This document shows, piece by piece, positions 7,090-18,021 of a stretch of 52,494 nucleotides of DNA. The stretch comes from Nitrospinota bacterium. GTDB lineage: Bacteria > JADFOP01. The notes under the pieces were generated by a model, which saw only the letters and a list, made by a program, of their open reading frames with translations, did no database searches and was not told where the DNA came from. Both the position numbers and the translations under genes were made by a program. Positions within the stretch are counted from its first letter, which is position 1. Each line of letters begins with the position of its first letter. The stretch is from NCBI GenBank assembly GCA_022562795.1, contig JADFOP010000010.1, positions 1-52,494 on the forward strand, given 5' to 3'.

Positions 7090-7620
7090 GTGATTACGGA
7101 CAAACCCTTACGCTATTGTCCCTACTGCGGATCCTCCCTGAGACGAAGCCTTCTCCCCGGTGACCCGCGAGCCCGCCTCGTCTGCTCTTCCTGCGACGCC
7201 ATCATATATGAGAACCCCCGGCCCGTGGTGGCTGCCGTTATAGAGGAAGGCGGCAAGGTGCTCCTCGCCCGTAGGGCAAAGGGGGCCCGCGCGGGGAGGT
7301 GGGATTTGCCCGGAGGGTTCGTGGAATTGGACGAAACAGCTGAGGAAGCCCTGGCCCGAGAGGTCCGAGAGGAGGTGGGCTGTGAAATTCGCCTCCACGA
7401 GGTGCTAGGAGTGTTCCGCGAGGCGGCAGGCACCTACGGACCCTCCCTCAATATCCACATCAGGGCTTCACCACTGGGCGAGCCTCACCCGACGGACGAG
7501 GTGAGCGAAGTCGGCTGGTTCGGCCCGGACGAACTGCCTCCAGCGGAGGAGTTCGCATTTGAGAACGACATCGCGGCCCTAGAGCGCTGGAAGGCCCTTC
7601 CCCCCCTGGAGGAGCCTTAG
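7090..7620 (+). CDS. Nudix hydrolase with N-terminal zinc ribbon
   Basis: 176 residues from GTG 7090, one base after the HAD stop with GAGG 4 nt upstream. The N-terminus has two cysteine pairs (RYCPYCG at about 10-13 and LVCSSCD at about 32-35) that form a zinc ribbon, followed by YENPRPVV, as in NudC-like and ADP-ribose pyrophosphatase-like proteins. The Nudix box runs from GGFVELDETAEEAL through AREVREEVG, with all catalytic glutamates. It probably hydrolyses a nucleoside diphosphate derivative; the substrate is unknown. The TAG stop overlaps the stop of the convergent ClC gene. Confidence 0.92.
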   Translation: MITDKPLRYCPYCGSSLRRSLLPGDPRARLVCSSCDAIIYENPRPVVAAVIEEGGKVLLARRAKGARAGRWDLPGGFVELDETAEEALAREVREEVGCEIRLHEVLGVFREAAGTYGPSLNIHIRASPLGEPHPTDEVSEVGWFGPDELPPAEEFAFENDIAALERWKALPPLEEP

Positions 7621-9371
7621 GCCTGTGTGGCGGTTCGCCGCAGAATCTCCTTGTTGTAAGCCTCGATTACGTCTTTGCGCCGAACCATCGCTATGACCCG
7701 TGAGGGCTCCTCGGGGCTCACGACAGGGATTTCCTCGATGTTTTTCTGGCCGAACTTCTGAAATACCAAGTCCAAGTCGTCTTCAGGCGTAACTGTGATG
7801 AGCCCATCGGTGGTGGCGATGTCTCTGGCCACTATGAGCGGTCCCAGAGCGGCGACGTCCTCCATGAGAACCATCCGGAGGTCTTGAAGGCTGAAGATGC
7901 CCGTCATATTGCCCTTACCGTCCACCACGGGGAAGTAGGAACAGGGGCTGCTGAGGGCTTCCTCCAATAGGGTCGACAAGGGGGTACCCTCGTAGAAAGT
8001 GTGCATCCGATCGGTCATGACCTCGTTTACCCGGAGGGCTTTCATCACGCTGACCTCTCGGCCCGCTACGATGGACAGCCCCCGGCGGGCGATCTTCAGG
8101 GTGTAGATGCTCTCACGGCTGAGGGAGGTCGTAACGATGGTGGCGATAATGCAAGCGACCATGAGAGGAAGGATGATGGTGTAAGAGCCCGTCATCTCGA
8201 AGACGATGATGATGGCGGTGATGGGGGCGTGGGTGGTAGCGGCCACCACCGCCCCCATGCCCACCAGCGCGTAGGCCCCTGAGGTGGCCGTTATGGAGGG
8301 AAAGAGGCGATGGACCAAGGTACCGACGGCCCCGCCCGTCATGGCTCCTATGAAGAGGGAGGGGGCGAAGATGCCGCCCGACTGGCCCGAGCCGATGGTG
8401 AGGGATGTGGCCAGCACCTTGATGAAGACGAGGGTCAGTAACAGCAGGAAGGGAGCCTGCTCCCGGAGGGACAGGGTGATGGTCTCGTAGCCAACCCCGT
8501 AGATGTGGGGGAAGGCCAGGGCTATCGCGCCGATGAGCAGCCCCCCGATGGCGGGTCGAGCCGCCTCGGGCAGAGGCGAGGCATCGAAGAGGTCCTCGCA
8601 TCGGTAAAGGAGATAGATGAAGAGGTAGGCCACCAGGCCGGCCGCAAGGCCAAGGATGAGATAGGGGAGCAGCTCGAAGGCATGGACGAGACGGTAGGGG
8701 GGCGCCTGTAAGGCGGGAAAGTCTCCGAGGAAGTGGCGGCTTACGACGGTGGCGACAACACTGGAGATGACGATGGGGCTGAAGCGGGCCAGAGCGAAGT
8801 CGCCGAGGATAATCTCCACGCTGAACATAGCTCCGGCGATGGGGGCATTGAAGGTGGCAGCGATGCCCGCAGCAGCCCCGCAGCCGACGAAGGTACGCAT
8901 CCGCTCGCCGCTGACCTTGAGGAGCTGGCCCAGGGTCGATCCGATGGCCGATCCGATCTGGACGATGGGTCCCTCGCGGCCCACGCTGCCCCCGCAGCCG
9001 ATGGTCAGAGCGCTGACTAGGGCCTTTACCCCTACGACCCGCGGCCGAATGACCCCTCCTCGCATGACTACCGCCTCCATGACCTCTGGCACCCCGTGGC
9101 CCTTGGCCTCTCGGGCGAAGAAGTAAATGATGGGGCCAACGACCGCCCCCCCAATGGCGGGAGCCAGGAGCTTGTGGTACCAGGGAAGGGCCCAGACGAA
9201 CTCGAGAAGGTTTAAGCCGGGTCCGAAGAAGAGGCGCTGAAAGAGGCGTATGAGGAAGCGGAAGCCAACAGCTCCCAGGCCGCCCAGAACTCCTATGACC
9301 ACGCCACATAAGACCATTACCGTATGTTCGGTGAAGCGGGTTCGGACAAGGAGGCGGTCGAAACGGGGCAT
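7617..9371 (-). CDS. ClC-family chloride/proton antiporter with CBS domains
   Basis: 584 residues: about 430 residues of ClC membrane core and a C-terminal pair of CBS domains (about 445-575). Ion-pathway motifs are KGHGVPEV (in place of GSGIP), GSVGREGPIVQIG with the gating glutamate of exchangers, and GQSGGIFAPSLFIGA. The gating Glu argues for Cl-/H+ exchange over a channel. The CBS pair probably binds adenine nucleotides and tunes activity. It stands alone on its strand, convergent with the Nudix gene (stops overlap by 3 bp). Inner-membrane protein. Confidence 0.93.
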   Translation of the reverse strand: MPRFDRLLVRTRFTEHTVMVLCGVVIGVLGGLGAVGFRFLIRLFQRLFFGPGLNLLEFVWALPWYHKLLAPAIGGAVVGPIIYFFAREAKGHGVPEVMEAVVMRGGVIRPRVVGVKALVSALTIGCGGSVGREGPIVQIGSAIGSTLGQLLKVSGERMRTFVGCGAAAGIAATFNAPIAGAMFSVEIILGDFALARFSPIVISSVVATVVSRHFLGDFPALQAPPYRLVHAFELLPYLILGLAAGLVAYLFIYLLYRCEDLFDASPLPEAARPAIGGLLIGAIALAFPHIYGVGYETITLSLREQAPFLLLLTLVFIKVLATSLTIGSGQSGGIFAPSLFIGAMTGGAVGTLVHRLFPSITATSGAYALVGMGAVVAATTHAPITAIIIVFEMTGSYTIILPLMVACIIATIVTTSLSRESIYTLKIARRGLSIVAGREVSVMKALRVNEVMTDRMHTFYEGTPLSTLLEEALSSPCSYFPVVDGKGNMTGIFSLQDLRMVLMEDVAALGPLIVARDIATTDGLITVTPEDDLDLVFQKFGQKNIEEIPVVSPEEPSRVIAMVRRKDVIEAYNKEILRRTATQA

Positions 9372-9560
9372 GAGGAGTTCCCTGAATTCAATTAGAGGGG
9401 CTATAAATATAAAGAATTACGAGGTGTATTAGCCCCTTAAGATTTGAGGGCTGACACAGTATGCCCTCTTCTCAGAGCAAAAATCTCTCCAATTTGGGAA
9501 AGCATAGAAACCTTTGTCAAGGGCTTGAATTTCAGACACTCTAGAGGGGCCGTCAGCGGG

Positions 9561-9941
9561 CTAGAGTCTGGTCTGGATGGTCTCATGGATCCGCGTCGAG
9601 ACGGGCCGGTCTCCAATGAGGCCAACTCGAATGGCCACTTGGGTTGTCGTTTCAGTAAGATATTTTACATCAACGCGAACGTCAGCACCGTTCGCCCTCT
9701 TGGCCATAATGGTCCCTTTCAAGGCGTCCCTCCTCTCGCCAACCACCGGCATCTCAAGGGATTGGAGGGAATCATGTGCGGCAATCCAAACGGCATCGTA
9801 CGTGGCGGGATATGTGCGTTTAAGTTCTCCCTTAAACCATGCGTAGGTGCCGGCCCCTAATCCAGCGCCCGTGGCGAGGACCGCCACTGCGCACCCTGTA
9901 GATAACAGAGCCACTAGAAGGACAACGCTAATTCGACGCAT
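9561..9941 (-). CDS. Small DUF3568-type lipoprotein
   Basis: 126 residues. The signal peptide ends in a lipobox (ALLSTGC), followed by a glycine-rich helix AGLGAGTYAWFKGEL and a soluble alpha/beta domain. This layout matches the DUF3568 family of small bacterial lipoproteins of unknown function. It is probably anchored in the outer membrane or periplasmic face. It has its own strong promoter at 9994-10022 and is therefore separate from the act operon that ends just upstream. Confidence 0.8.
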   Translation of the reverse strand: MRRISVVLLVALLSTGCAVAVLATGAGLGAGTYAWFKGELKRTYPATYDAVWIAAHDSLQSLEMPVVGERRDALKGTIMAKRANGADVRVDVKYLTETTTQVAIRVGLIGDRPVSTRIHETIQTRL

Positions 9942-9993
9942 CTTAGGCTACTCCTTACTCAACCGATGAAAGGCGCTCTAAAAAGGCCGCCTA

Positions 9994-10022
9994 ATCGTAT
10001 CCGTCCGACGTCATTCTGTCAA
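9994..10022 (-). promoter_or_regulatory. Sigma-70 promoter of the small lipoprotein gene
   Basis: TTGACA at 10017-10022, 17-bp spacer, TACGAT at 9994-9999 on the minus strand. It lies about 50 bp downstream of the actF stop. Confidence 0.7.
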
Positions 10023-10068
10023 GGCATGAGAATATATAGGGAGGGGTTGGGGTTACGCCTCAACGGCA

Positions 10069-11121
10069 CTATTTTAACGCGTAATGATTTATTACCTGGT
10101 CTCTGTTCACAAATGTCAATACAAAGAGAAAGGTCATCATCACAAATTCCAACACTAGGACCGGCATTTGAATTGTTAATAATGGAAGCAAAAATACCAA
10201 TCGCTCAATAAATACTCCTGAAAGAATAACGAAAGATAATACGAGAACGAGGAAAGGACTCGACTTTATCCGAATAAACAGGAGAGAAAGGAAAGGCAGG
10301 GGAAATAGTACAGCTAAAATTATAAAGGAAAGGGTCAGAAGGGTGGGGTCCGAAAACCGCCTTACAAAGAAGGTTACCTCTTCCGGAAGGTTTCCATACC
10401 AGATAACGAGGTATTGGGAGAAAAAGAAGTAGGCCCACATTACACAAAAAGCAAATAAGAGCGTAGCGGCATCTTTATGGGTTTTCTTTAAGGCCTGCGT
10501 TTGATCTGGATCACGTTCTTTTAATAGGAAATAGCAAAAGATGCAGGCCAGAGCCGTTCCTGTATAAAGCGCTTCTACAAAGAAATATCCACCGAAAAGT
10601 GTGCTATACCATGGATATTCCAAGGACATAACCCAATCAAATGCCGCCAGAGTTTGTGAAGTAACAAATGTGAACAAATAGAGTAACGCGTAAAAATATT
10701 GCTTATCCCCATCTCTAAAAACCTCTATAGCGAATTTTCTGGCAAATAGGTAAGCCAAGAGCAAGAATGATAGATTGCGCAACATGAAAAATTTCTTATT
10801 CAACCAGATGCCTTGGTCGCCGGCCCAGGGATAAATGTCAAGCTGGACGCCGAAGAGAAGAAATAAGAAGAAGATAAGCAGAAGCAGTGGATGCAACGAG
10901 AGCAATTCTTTTTTAATCGGTAGAATCCATTTTGCTTTTGAGAGCTGCGCGACTGCGGCCAACGCAACAACCCCCTGAAGAAGTGTAAGCCAAAACAATA
11001 ATATAAATAAGAGAGAGCCCTTTTTCTCTGGCCCCCAAACGCTCTCTATCAAGACTATAAATAGAAGAGCCGAAAGAAAAACTCCTGCCAGCCTCCCTAT
11101 CTTCATTTCCAACCTTTTCAT
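10069..11121 (-). CDS. actF: Alternative complex III subunit ActF (integral membrane)
   Basis: 350 residues, around ten hydrophobic helices. It shows the ActF signatures FDWVMSLEYPWYSTLFGGYFF and FFSQYLVIWYGNLPEE. In alternative complex III (quinol:electron-acceptor oxidoreductase) ActF is the smaller homologue of ActC and lies in the inner membrane. The ATG overlaps the ActD stop (ATGA). Last gene of the act operon; no clear terminator follows it. AT-rich codon use like the rest of the operon. Confidence 0.92.
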   Translation of the reverse strand: MKRLEMKIGRLAGVFLSALLFIVLIESVWGPEKKGSLLFILLFWLTLLQGVVALAAVAQLSKAKWILPIKKELLSLHPLLLLIFFLFLLFGVQLDIYPWAGDQGIWLNKKFFMLRNLSFLLLAYLFARKFAIEVFRDGDKQYFYALLYLFTFVTSQTLAAFDWVMSLEYPWYSTLFGGYFFVEALYTGTALACIFCYFLLKERDPDQTQALKKTHKDAATLLFAFCVMWAYFFFSQYLVIWYGNLPEEVTFFVRRFSDPTLLTLSFIILAVLFPLPFLSLLFIRIKSSPFLVLVLSFVILSGVFIERLVFLLPLLTIQMPVLVLEFVMMTFLFVLTFVNRDQVINHYALK

Positions 11122-11558
11122 TTCGGGTCTCCATCGTCAACTATGATAAGGAAGTTATTTCCGCATTCTTTTGGGGAAATGATCTTTTTGAGACTGGGAG
11201 ACCTTGAAAGAATGAGAAATCCGAGAAACGTCGCCACAACACCGAAGAGGATCGTCAGTTCAAAAGCGATGATGATAAATGGGGGTATCGAGACAATGGG
11301 CTTGCCTCCGGTAATCAGCAAAGGCCATCTCAAAACCGTGTAAATAGGAAAAGCAAAGCCCGTAATGGTGCCGCTCAGGGCTCCAAAGAATGTGAAGAAC
11401 TTTAACCTACTTGGACGAACTTCAAGAATTTCATCGACTTCATGAACGTGTATGGGTGACAGCACCGAAATATCCTTTTTGGGAACACCTTCGCCAACGA
11501 GGTTTTCCAATTTAGCAATAAATTCCGCTTTGTCTTTATACGAATATTCTCTGCTCAC
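11118..11558 (-). CDS. actD: Alternative complex III subunit ActD (DUF3341)
   Basis: 146 residues. A short cytoplasmic region (about 1-55) with the typical EVDEILEVRPSRLKFFT is followed by two transmembrane helices (about 55-75 and 95-118) and a short charged tail. This matches ActD, a small membrane subunit with no known cofactor. It overlaps both neighbours by 4 bp, so the genes actC, actD and actF are translationally coupled. Confidence 0.9.
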   Translation of the reverse strand: MSREYSYKDKAEFIAKLENLVGEGVPKKDISVLSPIHVHEVDEILEVRPSRLKFFTFFGALSGTITGFAFPIYTVLRWPLLITGGKPIVSIPPFIIIAFELTILFGVVATFLGFLILSRSPSLKKIISPKECGNNFLIIVDDGDPK

Positions 11559-12853
11559 CCTGCTTGCTCCTTTATGTCTGTTATTGCTAGTACGGGCAGT
11601 AGTTTTGCAAAGAGAAGGAATAGTGTAAAAAAGATGCTGAAGCTCATTATCGTTATACCGATTTCCACAAAACTGGGAACGTACGTCCCCCAGGAGTACG
11701 GATCAAAGTCTTTGGCTAACGATGTTACAATAATGATAAATCTCTCCAGCCACATTCCGACATTGATAAAGATTGAGATAATGAAGAGAAAGACGAGGTT
11801 TGTCCGGAATCTTTTAGCAAAAAGCGGCAGGGTCACCACACAATTACAAAATACCATGAGCCAGAAAAATGGGGCGTAGTGTCCGGCTGCCCGATATGTA
11901 AACAATCTCACATCATAAATAATGCCACTATAATAGGCTATACCAAACTCTATAATGTAAGCATAGGAGACTATCAGCGATGTAAACAATAGTATTTTCG
12001 CTAGATCATCAAAATGGTCAAGGGTTATATATTTCTCTAACGAGAACATCTTCCTCATTGGGACAACCAAGGTGATCACCATCGCCGTTCCAGAAAAAAT
12101 CGCTCCAGCTACGAAATATGGGGCAAAGATGGTGGTGTGCCAGCCGGGCAGAATACTCATGGCGAAATCCCACGAGACGACTGAGTGAACCGACACGACC
12201 AAGGGGGTAGCAAATGCGGCGAGGAAGAAATAGAGCCTATTGTAGTGAAGCCATTGGGAAACAGACCCTTCCCACCCGAGGGATAGAGTGCTGTAGATGG
12301 CCTTTCTCACCCCCTTGGAGAACCGTCTGACGATAGCCAGGTCGGGGATCAATCCCACGTAAAAGAAAATAACACTAACCGCAAGATATGTGCTTACGGC
12401 AAAAACATCCCAGACAAGAGGAGAGCGAAAGTTCACCCATAACTGGCGCTGATTTGGATACGGGATGAGGTAGTAAAACAACCAGGTGCGGCCAAGGTGA
12501 ATTAATGGGAACATTCCCGCTACTACCAGGGCGAATAGCGTCATTGCTTCGGCGGACCTGTTAAAACTGCTTCGAAATCGGGCTCGGGTAAGGAATAGGA
12601 CGGCCGAGATCAATGTGCCGGAGTGGGCAATCCCTATCCAGAATACAAAGTTTGTAATATAGACACCCCAACCAACTGGGTTTGTAATTCCTGCTACACC
12701 CATGCCTGTCATTATTTGATATCCCCAAAGAGCTAAACCTATGAGAATAAAGGATGAAGTAGTCCCCAGGGCAATCCAGTAGAGCCGGCTGGGTTTTCTC
12801 ATTGCGGCAAGGACGTCTAAATCCAGCCGCTCTCGGTATTCCGGTAATTCCAT
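11555..12853 (-). CDS. actC: Alternative complex III subunit ActC (NrfD-like quinol-binding membrane protein)
   Basis: 432 residues, NrfD/PsrC family with about ten transmembrane helices. Recognisable stretches are FWIGIAHSGTLISAVLFL, PLIHLGRTWLFYYLIPYPNQ, and SVHSVVSWDFAMSILPGWHTT. The family member in alternative complex III forms the periplasmic-side quinol oxidation site and contacts ActB. It starts 22 bp after the actB stop. Confidence 0.93.
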   Translation of the reverse strand: MELPEYRERLDLDVLAAMRKPSRLYWIALGTTSSFILIGLALWGYQIMTGMGVAGITNPVGWGVYITNFVFWIGIAHSGTLISAVLFLTRARFRSSFNRSAEAMTLFALVVAGMFPLIHLGRTWLFYYLIPYPNQRQLWVNFRSPLVWDVFAVSTYLAVSVIFFYVGLIPDLAIVRRFSKGVRKAIYSTLSLGWEGSVSQWLHYNRLYFFLAAFATPLVVSVHSVVSWDFAMSILPGWHTTIFAPYFVAGAIFSGTAMVITLVVPMRKMFSLEKYITLDHFDDLAKILLFTSLIVSYAYIIEFGIAYYSGIIYDVRLFTYRAAGHYAPFFWLMVFCNCVVTLPLFAKRFRTNLVFLFIISIFINVGMWLERFIIIVTSLAKDFDPYSWGTYVPSFVEIGITIMSFSIFFTLFLLFAKLLPVLAITDIKEQAG

Positions 12854-12875: not shown

Positions 12876-15674
12876 TCAGGTCTTTTTCGACAAGTAGTGC
12901 ACCGCCGGCTCCACTCCTAAATCTTCAAATATCCGGTGGGACCGTTTTGAGTGGGCCAACTCGTACACGCGTGATTTTCGGTCTAGAATATTTCCAAAGG
13001 CGATTGCCTTCGTGGGGCAGGTCTGGGCGCACGCAGGCACGACCTCTCCATCTCGAACCTTCCTGGAGTCATCCTTAGCAAGATCCTTGGCCACTCTAAT
13101 TCGTTGTACACAAAAGGTGCATTTTTCCATGATTCCCTTTGTTCTAATCGAGACCGCGGGATTCTGCATTTTATCCAGGGGCTCTGGCCAGTCCTGATCG
13201 AACCAATTGAACCGTCTCACCTTGTATGGGCAATTGTTCGCGCAATACCTTGTGCCGACGCACCTGTTGTAGATCTGCGCATTGAGCCCCTCGGGATTGT
13301 GATATGCCGCAAATACGGGGCATACCGGCTCACATGGTGCATTGTCACAATGCTGGCATAACATGGGCACCATATTTGTTCTATCGTGGGCGTCTTTATG
13401 TTGTTCGATCCTAATCCATGACATTTCTCTTCCAATTAAATGCTCTTTCTTGCCGACGATGGGAATATTGTTTTCAATGTAGCAGGCTGCAACGCATGAG
13501 GAGCAGCCGGTGCAAAGGTCTAGATCGATAGCCATTGCCCAGCGATAATCTTTATGTTCATGCTTTGCATATAGCGTAGATATTGCATGTTTAGCGTGAA
13601 CAGGGTAAGGAATTACTCCCTTTCCTTCATGTGCGATCGAACCTGAAAGAATTGGCAATTTCTCGGACCGGCCGGTCTTTGAAATTTTAACACCCTCGAG
13701 GTAAGAAATGATCTCCCCGCTTCTTCTATCTGTTTGTATTAAGATTGAGTCCACCATACCTTGATGGACTGTATAAACCCCTTCCTCCAACCCTTCTTGT
13801 ATTTTCACCGGCAGTTTTACAGACATCTTGGAAGAAGAAATTTGAAGCTCATCTCCATCCCTTAATTTATCCTTGCGGGCCGTCTTCTCGGATATCGATA
13901 CCCACTTCCCATAAGAGATGGTTGTTACCGGGTCGGGGATTTCACTGAGCAGCGGAAGATCGGCGCTTCTGCCGTCGAACGACCGTATTGAAGGTGTGAC
14001 TAGGAGGACTGGTTTCTTCATTACCTCAGGCAACTTCAAACTTTTTAAATGATCTTTCAGGCTCCCTTCCTGGAGTTTAACCTCGTCCTTGTCAGCTGTC
14101 TCTTCCAGGTACCCCTTGTTCAATATTTCTTCTATAAAGCTCTCTCCATAACTCTCTTTCCACTCATTCAATACGTATTCCTGATAGCTTGAGAACGTCT
14201 CGTCCTCACTGCTCAGCTCCATCAACTGCAGCAGAATGTCCCCTTCGGCAAGAGTATTATGTAGAGGTTTTAGAACGGGCTGAATTATCGTTTTGATATT
14301 ATATCTTGGCTCGGCATCTCCCCAAGACTCCAGGGAATGAGACAGGGGGAGGATTACATCACACACTTCCATCGTCTTATTGTGCAATTCAGACATTCCG
14401 ACCCTTAATTGGGCTTTCATCAGGTCATTCTTGAATGATGGGGGGAGGCTAGAGACTGGATCGGTCCTGGAGATGAAGATGACTCCAATATCTTCATCCC
14501 GGAGATCTTCTGAAAGCTCTTCGATATCGAGCATGGTTCCAACATTAGAGTAATTCTCGCCCTTGGAGAAATCGATTAGAGAACTTTTCGCCCCGGTGGC
14601 CCATTGAATCAATCCAGTTAAAACCAGCGCGTCTAAACCAGACCCCTGCCTGGCTGAGATTCCGCCCGTCAACACTAACGGGCTCTTTGCTTTATCAAAA
14701 GGCTGAGCTAATCTATTCAATCCATCGGGCGTTATCCCCGTTTTGCGCGATATTTCTTCAACCGGCAAATTAGGTATCAAGTCCAATAACTCTTGAGAAA
14801 TCATCTCCCTGATGAGACCCTTTTCTTTTATATAGTTCAACAAGAAGAGAAGCAGATAAACTTCACTCCCAGGATTTAGGACAAACCTTTCGTTCGCACT
14901 CATACCTGTTAGCGAGAGGTGAGGCTCAACATGGAACCACTTAAAATTGTTCCGCCTTTTAGCCCTTGAAAATTGGTTGGAATTGTTTACTGGACTTATA
15001 TAGGTCTCGAGAATGTCAGCCCCAAGCGTAAGCAGGAAATCCGCATTTTCTATATCATGCGACGGGATCTCTTTTGTCGCATAAAGAATCCCGTTGGCCT
15101 CTCGAAGCGCAGCATAGGAGTAAACCTCAAATTCGGGCAGCCTTTCTATGTCCATCTCAATAGTAAAAGTATCTATCAACTCTGAAAGAGAGCCGGTCGT
15201 TCTACCCGATAAATATACGTTTGTCTGGCCCTCGTCGTCCGATTCTTCCAACGCATCCAGAATCTTTAAATATGCTTCCTTCCATGTGGAGACTTTTAAT
15301 TTGCCGCTGCCATCACGAATAAGGGGTTCTTTAAGTCTTTCTGGATGGTAGAGACGGGTCAATGACGACTGGCCCCGGATACAGAGGGTTCCATCGTTAA
15401 TCGGATGCCCTGAGAGCCCTTCTAGCTTTACTGGATATCTTTCATAGCGGTTGTTGGTAGTTAGTTTTTCATGGACTTTCACCGTTAGGCCGCAATTCGC
15501 CGGACACTCGGTACAGGTCGAGTTATAAAAAGCAGGTTGCCCAGGAGCCAGGCCATCTTCTGGAGGAATCACATGGGGAATGAGTTTTTCCGTTCCTTTC
15601 TGCACACCGCATGAAGCAACGAGGGCGGTGCCTGTCGTAGCCCCGAGAAGCTTAATAAAATCCCGTCTCTTCAT
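12876..15674 (-). CDS. actB: Alternative complex III subunit ActB (molybdopterin-fold plus Fe-S domain)
   Basis: 932 residues, periplasmic. The N-terminus MKRRDFIKLLGATTG is a Tat-like signal with a possible lipobox (ALVASC). Residues about 50-700 have the molybdopterin-oxidoreductase fold. The C-terminal ferredoxin-like part (about 745-900) carries four cysteine groups: CTGCSSCVAAC, CQHCDNAPCEPVCP, CVGTRYCANNCPYKVRRF and CTFCVQRI...CAQTCP, which would hold 4Fe-4S and 3Fe-4S clusters. The N-terminal motif CTECPANC plus a later Cys (LCIRGQ) is kept, although ActB proteins studied so far carry no molybdenum cofactor. Electrons from quinol at ActC would pass through these clusters to the hemes of ActA. 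Confidence 0.92.
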   Translation of the reverse strand: MKRRDFIKLLGATTGTALVASCGVQKGTEKLIPHVIPPEDGLAPGQPAFYNSTCTECPANCGLTVKVHEKLTTNNRYERYPVKLEGLSGHPINDGTLCIRGQSSLTRLYHPERLKEPLIRDGSGKLKVSTWKEAYLKILDALEESDDEGQTNVYLSGRTTGSLSELIDTFTIEMDIERLPEFEVYSYAALREANGILYATKEIPSHDIENADFLLTLGADILETYISPVNNSNQFSRAKRRNNFKWFHVEPHLSLTGMSANERFVLNPGSEVYLLLFLLNYIKEKGLIREMISQELLDLIPNLPVEEISRKTGITPDGLNRLAQPFDKAKSPLVLTGGISARQGSGLDALVLTGLIQWATGAKSSLIDFSKGENYSNVGTMLDIEELSEDLRDEDIGVIFISRTDPVSSLPPSFKNDLMKAQLRVGMSELHNKTMEVCDVILPLSHSLESWGDAEPRYNIKTIIQPVLKPLHNTLAEGDILLQLMELSSEDETFSSYQEYVLNEWKESYGESFIEEILNKGYLEETADKDEVKLQEGSLKDHLKSLKLPEVMKKPVLLVTPSIRSFDGRSADLPLLSEIPDPVTTISYGKWVSISEKTARKDKLRDGDELQISSSKMSVKLPVKIQEGLEEGVYTVHQGMVDSILIQTDRRSGEIISYLEGVKISKTGRSEKLPILSGSIAHEGKGVIPYPVHAKHAISTLYAKHEHKDYRWAMAIDLDLCTGCSSCVAACYIENNIPIVGKKEHLIGREMSWIRIEQHKDAHDRTNMVPMLCQHCDNAPCEPVCPVFAAYHNPEGLNAQIYNRCVGTRYCANNCPYKVRRFNWFDQDWPEPLDKMQNPAVSIRTKGIMEKCTFCVQRIRVAKDLAKDDSRKVRDGEVVPACAQTCPTKAIAFGNILDRKSRVYELAHSKRSHRIFEDLGVEPAVHYLSKKT

Positions 15675-15692: not shown

Positions 15693-16262
15693 TTATTTAT
15701 GACATGTCAAACAATCGATGGATGCCTTTTTTGATCTATGACAGGTGACACACCAACCCATGTTAAGTGAGCTGACTTGCCGGACCACGCTAACATTTTT
15801 TATTTCCCCGTGACAAGCTGAACATTCTAACCCAGCCTTGATGTGCCTCTTATGAGAGAAATAAACGTGATCGGGTAAATTATGCACTTTAATCCATGGA
15901 ACAGGCTGCTTGTTATTCCAATATTTGTGTAATTTTTTTATTTCTGGTCTGTCAGTAGCGATGACACTATGGCACGACATGCATTTCTGAACCGATGGAA
16001 CGCCGGCGTGTTGTGATTGCTCGACGTACGTATGGCAAAACGTACACTGAAGGCCGACTCTCGAGACGTGAATTTTATGACTAAAGGCGATAGGCTGCTG
16101 GGGCGCCTCGCTGGAAGAGAACCAACAACGTGGGTCTATCTTGCCGATGACGCCCTGTATGGGAATCTTCGGGCAGGGCGACAGCCCAGCTCCCAAGACT
16201 AGAAAGGCCAGCATTACCGGCGGCGTAAGAAGCAACAAAGGGATTAGAATTCTTTTCAACAT
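15693..16262 (-). CDS. actA: Alternative complex III subunit ActA (pentaheme cytochrome c)
   Basis: 189 residues with an N-terminal membrane anchor (residues about 5-28) and five CxxCH heme sites: CTFCH, CMSCH, CSACH, CVTCH and CLTCH. Extra histidines (FSHKIH, YFSHKRH) can serve as axial ligands. This pentaheme layout is the ActA subunit, which takes electrons from the Fe-S clusters of ActB in the periplasm. It sits 18 bp upstream of actB and 29 bp after the membrane cytochrome gene. Confidence 0.92.
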   Translation of the reverse strand: MLKRILIPLLLLTPPVMLAFLVLGAGLSPCPKIPIQGVIGKIDPRCWFSSSEAPQQPIAFSHKIHVSRVGLQCTFCHTYVEQSQHAGVPSVQKCMSCHSVIATDRPEIKKLHKYWNNKQPVPWIKVHNLPDHVYFSHKRHIKAGLECSACHGEIKNVSVVRQVSSLNMGWCVTCHRSKKASIDCLTCHK

Positions 16263-16291: not shown

Positions 16292-17668
16292 CTACTTAGA
16301 AACTTCACCCTTTAGGCGTTTTAGAATATAACTCGCAACGCCACTTGCCTCTGACCTGTTAAGACCGTAATTGGGCATTGGAGGATATCCCGGGTCCTTC
16401 TTTGTAGGGCTCTGTATAAAAACGATCAATTCATCCGGATTACTTTCATATTTCGGAAGAACCGTGTTGAAGGGGGGTCCGACCAGCTTCTTGTCATAAA
16501 GATGACAGGCCGTGCAACGGGAATTAAAGATTTTTTCCCCACCCGCCTTGTCATGAACCGCCTCCTCCGACCTCATTTTTTCCGCCTCAGCCAGCAATTT
16601 TTTCCTGGCTTCATCAGCCTGAACGACAAGATTCAAGGTGTGGTCTCTTATTGCGTTCTCGACTGTAATTTGGTCGCTAATGCTAATGACCGAAAACGCT
16701 AGAATGAACAGAATTACCACGTGAACGACTGACTTTGACTTATCGTAAAACATTAATCTCGACTTATACGACGCCCCTTCCTTATGAAGCACGGCATGAG
16801 GTCGAACACCATGTATAAGGATTCCGTACAACAAGTAAAAGATTACCACGAACAACATTATGGAAAGTGAAGTCAATGCAAAGACTTTCGCCGACAAAGC
16901 GATAACGGGCAAGGTGATCAAATTCCACACTAGCATAACCGGCAAGATCGCAATACATGCAAGAGATAGGCCTGCGCAAAACTTTCTGATGAAGGCCCCA
17001 TACTCCTCGTCAATACTATCTGAGTCCTCATAGAACTCAAAAAAATAGAAGAGGGCTGCCCCGCCGGTAATTGCCAAGGAGGCAAATAAAAAAATCTTAT
17101 ATCTTGCTATCACACTCCAAGAAAAAAGTAGACTGTACGGGTCTGGGCGCTGAATAAAAGACCTCTTTTCAAAATCTGTTATCAAAGTCGTACCGCCGAT
17201 GAAGATGAAATAGGCTCCAAAGAGAACGGCCAGGCCCAGAATACCCCAGCAAATGTGGAGTAGAAATTGCTTATCACGCTTTGGGAATGTGTGTTGATAC
17301 ATGTAAATAAGGACTAGGCCGAGCGCTAAAAGAAACAAGGCGGAATTGAAAAAAGTATGTATTGGTAAGCCGGAACCATAAAGAATCTGGGAAAATAGAA
17401 CGGATAAGGTCATCAGAGGCAGGAGACCCAAAATCACTCCAAAGCTCTTATTGTATATGCCGGTCTCAAGCAAATCCTTGGCGAAACGAGAGTAAATGGG
17501 GTTGGGTTGCTTTTTATCCAGGATATTGAAAATGACGGACAATAACGAACTGCCTAAAAAAACACTGATGAAAGTAATATGGAGGAAGGTGACTAAGATG
17601 ATAAGGTATCCGAAGAGCGTGAGTTGATTGGCAGGGGGAGGCAGAACAAGTGATTCAATGCTCGGCAT
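16292..17668 (-). CDS. Polytopic membrane protein with C-terminal monoheme cytochrome c, in place of ActE
   Basis: 458 residues. Residues about 15-345 hold roughly eight hydrophobic helices with scattered histidines (FLHITF, YQHTF, LHICWG). A linker helix (about 345-365) follows, then a cytochrome c domain with one heme site RCTACH near residue 388 and a likely Met ligand in YPPMPNYGL. Classic act operons encode ActE as a small monoheme lipoprotein, and here the only monoheme domain is fused to a membrane protein. It is the first gene of the operon, 29 bp before actA. The membrane part is not one I can name with certainty; a role in heme b or quinone chemistry is only a possibility. Confidence 0.8.
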   Translation of the reverse strand: MPSIESLVLPPPANQLTLFGYLIILVTFLHITFISVFLGSSLLSVIFNILDKKQPNPIYSRFAKDLLETGIYNKSFGVILGLLPLMTLSVLFSQILYGSGLPIHTFFNSALFLLALGLVLIYMYQHTFPKRDKQFLLHICWGILGLAVLFGAYFIFIGGTTLITDFEKRSFIQRPDPYSLLFSWSVIARYKIFLFASLAITGGAALFYFFEFYEDSDSIDEEYGAFIRKFCAGLSLACIAILPVMLVWNLITLPVIALSAKVFALTSLSIMLFVVIFYLLYGILIHGVRPHAVLHKEGASYKSRLMFYDKSKSVVHVVILFILAFSVISISDQITVENAIRDHTLNLVVQADEARKKLLAEAEKMRSEEAVHDKAGGEKIFNSRCTACHLYDKKLVGPPFNTVLPKYESNPDELIVFIQSPTKKDPGYPPMPNYGLNRSEASGVASYILKRLKGEVSK

Positions 17669-17851: not shown

Positions 17852-17878
17852 GCCCCACAACCCTTTAAATCGTGGGGC
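17852..17878 (-). terminator. Stem-loop after tRNA-fMet
   Basis: GCCCCAC and GTGGGGC pair perfectly (7 bp, 13-nt loop) just past the CCA end of the tRNA on the minus strand. It is followed by GTTTCATTG, which is not a strong T-tract, so it may act as a weak terminator or processing stop. Confidence 0.5.
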
Positions 17879-17993: not shown

Positions 17994-18021
17994 AATATAG
18001 CATCCTGCCCATTGCTGTCAA
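17994..18021 (-). promoter_or_regulatory. Sigma-70 promoter of tRNA-fMet
   Basis: TTGACA at 18016-18021, 16-bp spacer, TATATT at 17994-17999 on the minus strand, about 33 bp before the tRNA 5' end. A weak GGCC/GGCC stem followed by five Ts lies just upstream and could end the ftsB transcript. Confidence 0.65.

Follow-up and report, generated by a model that had tools for sequence, protein, structure and literature searches.

In solved structures of alternative complex III (ACIII) the quinol site is ActC, and most, though not all, known act operons encode a small monoheme cytochrome, ActE, between ActD and ActF. In R. marinus, ActE sits on heme V of ActA, extending the heme wire towards the heme c domain of the caa3 oxidase, to which it is positioned to pass electrons; its N-terminus is intertwined with that of ActB (PMC5928083). 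Although ActE has been proposed as the point where ACIII meets its acceptor, F. johnsoniae can do without it (PMC8552683), and some operons have no gene for it. Aklujkar et al. (2012) described in Pelobacter carbinolicus a monoheme ActE that, unlike that of other species, has eight predicted transmembrane segments; they regarded it as unique and suggested that eight cysteines line a channel (PMC3543383). Lorencik et al. (2021) cite bioinformatics according to which P. carbinolicus is without ActE and another monoheme protein may compensate (PMC8552683). Furthermore, a 2025 survey found that Nitrospirales carry a CydAA' of the OR-N5 type directly downstream of the ACIII genes (PMC12342949). We found no paper that joins these observations, defines the operon clades described below, or traces the membrane part of such a protein to the cytochrome bd superfamily, though the wider literature may hold one.

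The act operon of the window and its first gene

The window, the whole stretch of 52,494 nucleotides from a Nitrospinota bacterium analysed here, contains an act operon of the order X-ActA-B-C-D-F, with neighbouring genes about 30 bp apart or overlapping (Table 1). The hallmarks of ACIII are present in the form of a fused ActB, a pentaheme ActA, the NrfD-like ActC and ActF, and ActD. The canonical complexes of R. marinus, F. johnsoniae, and R. castenholzii have ActA (with five hemes), B, C, D, and F in the same order, whereas operons of the window's type have no ActE between ActD and ActF, a gene for a membrane-cytochrome c fusion (ActX, or X) before ActA, and a shorter ActB. An ActE-type gene was looked for in the window operon and is absent, ActD and ActF overlapping directly, which bears out the lack of ActE recorded in the initial annotation. 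Because ActX precedes ActA, whereas canonical ActE is found between ActD and ActF, it would replace ActE in function, not in position.

Table 1. Features of the act operon and its flanks (positions in the window; residue numbers are those of ActX)
Feature	Position	Strand	Description
ActX (CydA'-like membrane domain + monoheme cytochrome c)	16292..17668	-	458 aa; first act-operon gene
ActX membrane domain, residues 18-328	16685..17617	-	eight predicted helices, N-out/C-out; from hydropathy, loop charge, hhalign
ActX cytochrome c domain, residues 377-450, c551/c552-like	16319..16540	-	Pfam PF00034; PDB profile matches
CTACH heme c attachment, residues 385-389	16502..16516	-	single CxxCH of ActX; invariant among 25 relatives
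Met431 in PPMP motif	16376..16378	-	invariant (25 relatives); probable sixth heme ligand, a putative role
His30, aligned with CydA heme-ligand His	17579..17581	-	kept in only 10/25 relatives
ActA-like pentaheme cytochrome c	15693..16262	-	189 aa; PF14522, five CxxCH; 30 bp after ActX
ActB	12876..15674	-	932 aa; molybdopterin-like domain fused to 4Fe-4S domain
ActC, NrfD-like membrane subunit	11555..12853	-	PF03916
ActD	11118..11558	-	PF11821, 113.7 bits
ActF-like second NrfD-type membrane subunit	10069..11121	-	from position and homology to other ActF; without Pfam match
Promoter-like TTGACA-N16-TATATT (11/12)	17994..18021	-	5' of operon; consensus match only
Terminator-like hairpin, twelve pairs	17852..17878	-	between promoter-like site and operon start; possible leader attenuator of the act operon
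DUF3568 (PF12092) protein	9561..9941	-	3' of act operon; lipobox-like N-terminus

The membrane-cytochrome c fusion reported in the initial annotation is real, with the reading frame, the eight predicted helices, and the one CxxCH all in place. The C-terminal 80 residues of ActX are a monoheme cytochrome c, and the Pfam Cytochrom_C family matches residues 377-450 with 25.6 bits against a cut-off of 21.3; residues 1-345 have no Pfam or NCBIfam family match. Hydropathy averaged over 13 relatives gives eight helices, and the K/R-rich loops in these relatives are the odd-numbered ones, which implies a periplasmic location for both termini and for the heme. An AlphaFold model made from three sequences had a pLDDT of 54 and was left out of the fold search. 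Gly39, Pro84, and Pro254 are invariant in the membrane part of 25 relatives. By description only, the P. carbinolicus protein is like ActX, being a monoheme protein with eight helices in an act operon where canonical ActE is missing. The statement that such a layout is not found in the well-studied examples holds for the solved structures, but an eight-helix ActE had already been described in Pelobacter (PMC3543383). The proposed cysteine channel is rejected for the ActX family, because no cysteine outside the CxxCH is conserved across it.

Recurrence of the fusion and its exclusion of ActE

The full-length fusion is conserved at the same operon position with 60% identity within the genus ('Nitrospinae bacterium AH_259_B05_G02_I21', L017, whose contig is also L024) and 30% identity in a distant deltaproteobacterial MAG (L018, identical to L025), so ActX is not a chance reading frame. 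These were the only two full relatives in a contig scan, a small yield that follows from patterns built from three sequences. A profile of the membrane part found relatives in 34 of 386 genomes, in neighbourhoods of mainly two kinds, namely operons with X followed by ActA-B-C-D-F, and pairs of genes termed CydAc and ORF2.

Act operons were located by ActD in 112 of the same 386 genomes, and about 100 neighbourhoods were read, the usual gene order being A-B-C-D-E-F. Under a mechanical rule, none of the 12 X operons has a one-heme gene between ActC/D and ActF, whereas ActE is present there in at least 88 of the 98 operons without X (about 110 operons surveyed). The exclusion gives a Fisher p of 1.8e-10, uncorrected for relatedness; X perhaps arose only once or twice on the tree, and the survey counts are not independent. 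X is directly 5' of ActA in all 12 operons, with a gap of -16 to +49 bp, and it still adjoins ActA in L071, where ActA is behind cox genes and apart from ActC-D-F. The survey of act operons suggested in the initial annotation thus recovers the same fusion, each time in an operon without ActE, and the mutual exclusion, together with the constant position of X beside ActA, supports the claim that the fusion takes the place of ActE.

Ten operons have neither X nor ActE under the rule. In L158, L160, and L176 a one-heme ORF lies nearby but was overlooked by the rule or could not be assigned a place; L131, L142, L171, L189, and L193 are truncated or incomplete, L193 comprising the latter half of an X operon. 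The act operons L197 and L198 appear to be genuine cases, with neither gene in the stretch read. The ActD-region frames of L124, L159, and L167 are 392-462 aa long with one CxxCH, and are probably ActD-ActE fusions; such a fusion is reportedly present in Melioribacter roseus. Canonical ActE is found in G002, a genome of the same class and another genus (L179).

As a test of prediction, a full-length X profile was run over 40 genomes of the phylum of G076, and 12 of 12 new full-length matches with surroundings fetched were directly upstream of ActA. No ActE was found in any of these 12 later-found X operons that reaches ActF. Carriers of X belong to at least four phylum-level groups.

Descent of the membrane and heme domains

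Profile comparisons indicate that the membrane part of ActX has its origin in a CydA'-like family within the cytochrome bd superfamily. Alignment by hhalign gives an E of 3.9e-39 between X and the ORF2/CydA'-like family and of 2.7e-13 between X and CydAc, and CydAc in turn matches Geobacillus CydA (5doq) with a profile E of 1.2e-10; the match of Pfam PF01654 to an L019 homologue (E 2.4e-4) is below the family's cut-off. The homology to CydA is therefore one of sequence profiles in series (X to CydAc, CydAc to CydA) and not of structure; when the X profile was run against the PDB, matches were confined to the cytochrome c domain. LMBD1, the sole membrane match of the ORF2/X profile in the PDB, is probably a chance hit, and MscS matches in the initial search were dismissed as noise.

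The CydAc-ORF2 pairs recur as tandems (L020-L023, L076-L078, L080-L085, L087-L089, L091-L093), some of them directly after Rieske and cytochrome b genes. CydAc carries heme c, often matches Pfam Cyt_bd_oxida_I, and has eight CxxCH in L023, L083, and L093; ORF2 is without heme c and has one invariant His (19/19). These pairs look like the CydA and CydA' of OR-N type CydAA' (PMC10839748, PMC12342949), a likeness and not a placement against the reference set. Unlike OR-N CydAA', the operon of the window encodes a CydA'-like partner alone, fused to cytochrome c and upstream of ActA.

In a tree of the membrane domain with CydAc as the outgroup, X forms one clade nested in the ORF2 family (support 98). 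The X operons fall into two groups in a tree of 55 ActB proteins, with seven in the group that includes the window (support 100) and three in the other (support 100), a pattern still compatible with a single origin. An intermediate layout, CydAc followed by X and ActA-B-C-D-F, is found in L019, L073, and L074, and in L075 a CydAc and X pair (7460-10162) has no act genes beside it; its genome carries a canonical ACIII operon with ActE elsewhere (L155). L075 and the three f26 operons (CydAc, X, and act genes) fall outside the derived X-only clade, which suggests that an act operon captured a CydAA'-type pair and that CydA was later lost.

The heme-ligand His of CydA, which we take to be H19 of E. 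coli and H21 of Geobacillus, aligns with His30 of ActX. A His is found at this position in 23/23 CydAc and 19/19 ORF2 proteins but in only 10/25 X proteins, with Phe, Val, Asn, Ile, or Tyr in the remaining relatives. A functional cytochrome bd oxidase would be expected to conserve the His equivalent to H19, and the X family does not. No His is invariant in the membrane part among the 25 relatives, no quinone-site feature was recognised there, and the second redox or quinone site suggested in the initial annotation is accordingly unsupported. We think it most likely that the membrane part holds no heme of its own and acts as an anchor and a surface for docking.

The heme domain of X scores 119 bits with the X model. 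With an ActE model derived from 81 canonical sequences it scores 6.6 bits, and the ActE of G002, itself in the model, 182 bits. Its PDB profile matches are to c551/c552. On these comparisons, ActX is very probably not an ActE with added helices, and its heme domain belongs to another class. ActB has a median length of 942 aa in X operons and 1030 aa in canonical ones, the shortening being mostly N-terminal, with 30 residues before the first shared block against a median of 76. A tie between the shorter N-terminus and the absence of ActE is only suggestive, because some canonical ActB proteins, including that of G002, are also short there.

A proposed electron exit for ACIII

We consider it likely that a captured CydA'-cytochrome c subunit displaced ActE and that electrons now leave the ActA heme wire through it. 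The ancestor of ActX would have been the CydA'-like partner subunit of a CydAA'-type oxidoreductase with a C-terminal cytochrome c, recruited into the act operon and retained there, with loss of the CydA partner in the window's clade. We infer that ActX is a member of the complex, in which quinol would be oxidised at ActC/ActB and electrons would travel along the five ActA hemes. The ActX heme c, tethered by eight helices, would take electrons from the end of the ActA wire and pass them on, the simplest acceptor being the cytochrome c domain of CoxII in the heme-copper oxidase encoded elsewhere in the genome.

A cox operon in the window genome (97% complete) encodes a CoxII with heme c, and the other cytochrome c sites of the genome outside the act operon are in two larger proteins and in a generic monoheme protein of 139 aa, which is on contig C2 at a distance from the act genes. 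In L068, apparent cox genes are directly before X. The 139-aa cytochrome could be the carrier or exit instead of ActX, and the dispensability of ActE in F. johnsoniae means that its absence need not require a substitute.

The relation of the membrane domain to heme-binding proteins of the CydA family, the His30 that the window protein keeps at the CydA ligand position, and the invariant Gly39, Pro84, and Pro254 would also suit an active module that binds heme b or quinone and gives the complex a second site, for quinone or for charge coupling. This is unlikely, given that no membrane His is invariant, that position 30 is His in a minority of relatives, and that the CydAc relatives likewise lack a His at the CydA H186 position; a docking surface could be conserved without any cofactor. 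We regard it as very unlikely that the CydA'-like part is still active through a quinone, heme, or proton site, in which case X-type ACIII would be an ACIII/bd-module hybrid holding an additional energy-coupling site.

If ActX were instead a separate enzyme or oxidase half with another partner, merely co-transcribed with ACIII, the occurrence of CydAc-ORF2 relatives alone or beside Rieske/cytochrome b in other genomes, and of the L075 pair away from act genes, would be expected. That possibility is a poor one, since a CydAc partner was looked for in the window genome and none was found, and X adjoins ActA in 24 operons and excludes ActE. An ordinary ActE cytochrome domain fused to a membrane protein is highly improbable: although ActX is monoheme, predicted to be periplasmic, and mutually exclusive with ActE, and although the Pelobacter protein was described as ActE (PMC3543383), the large difference in score against the ActE model, the different gene position, and the lack of the ActE N-terminal region all argue against it.

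If, as we favour, ActX is a captured subunit serving as the exit, the survey suggests that in whole clades ActE gave way to a different cytochrome, borne on a membrane protein derived from bd oxidases, and that some of the exchange operons are intermediates in which the CydA partner persists. ActX explains some genomes annotated as without ActE, and a layout that, by description, was noted once, in Pelobacter, marks distinct operon clades across several phyla. The modularity of ACIII is thereby made testable, both as to which part receives the exit heme and as to whether ACIII once formed complexes with CydAA'-type oxidases.
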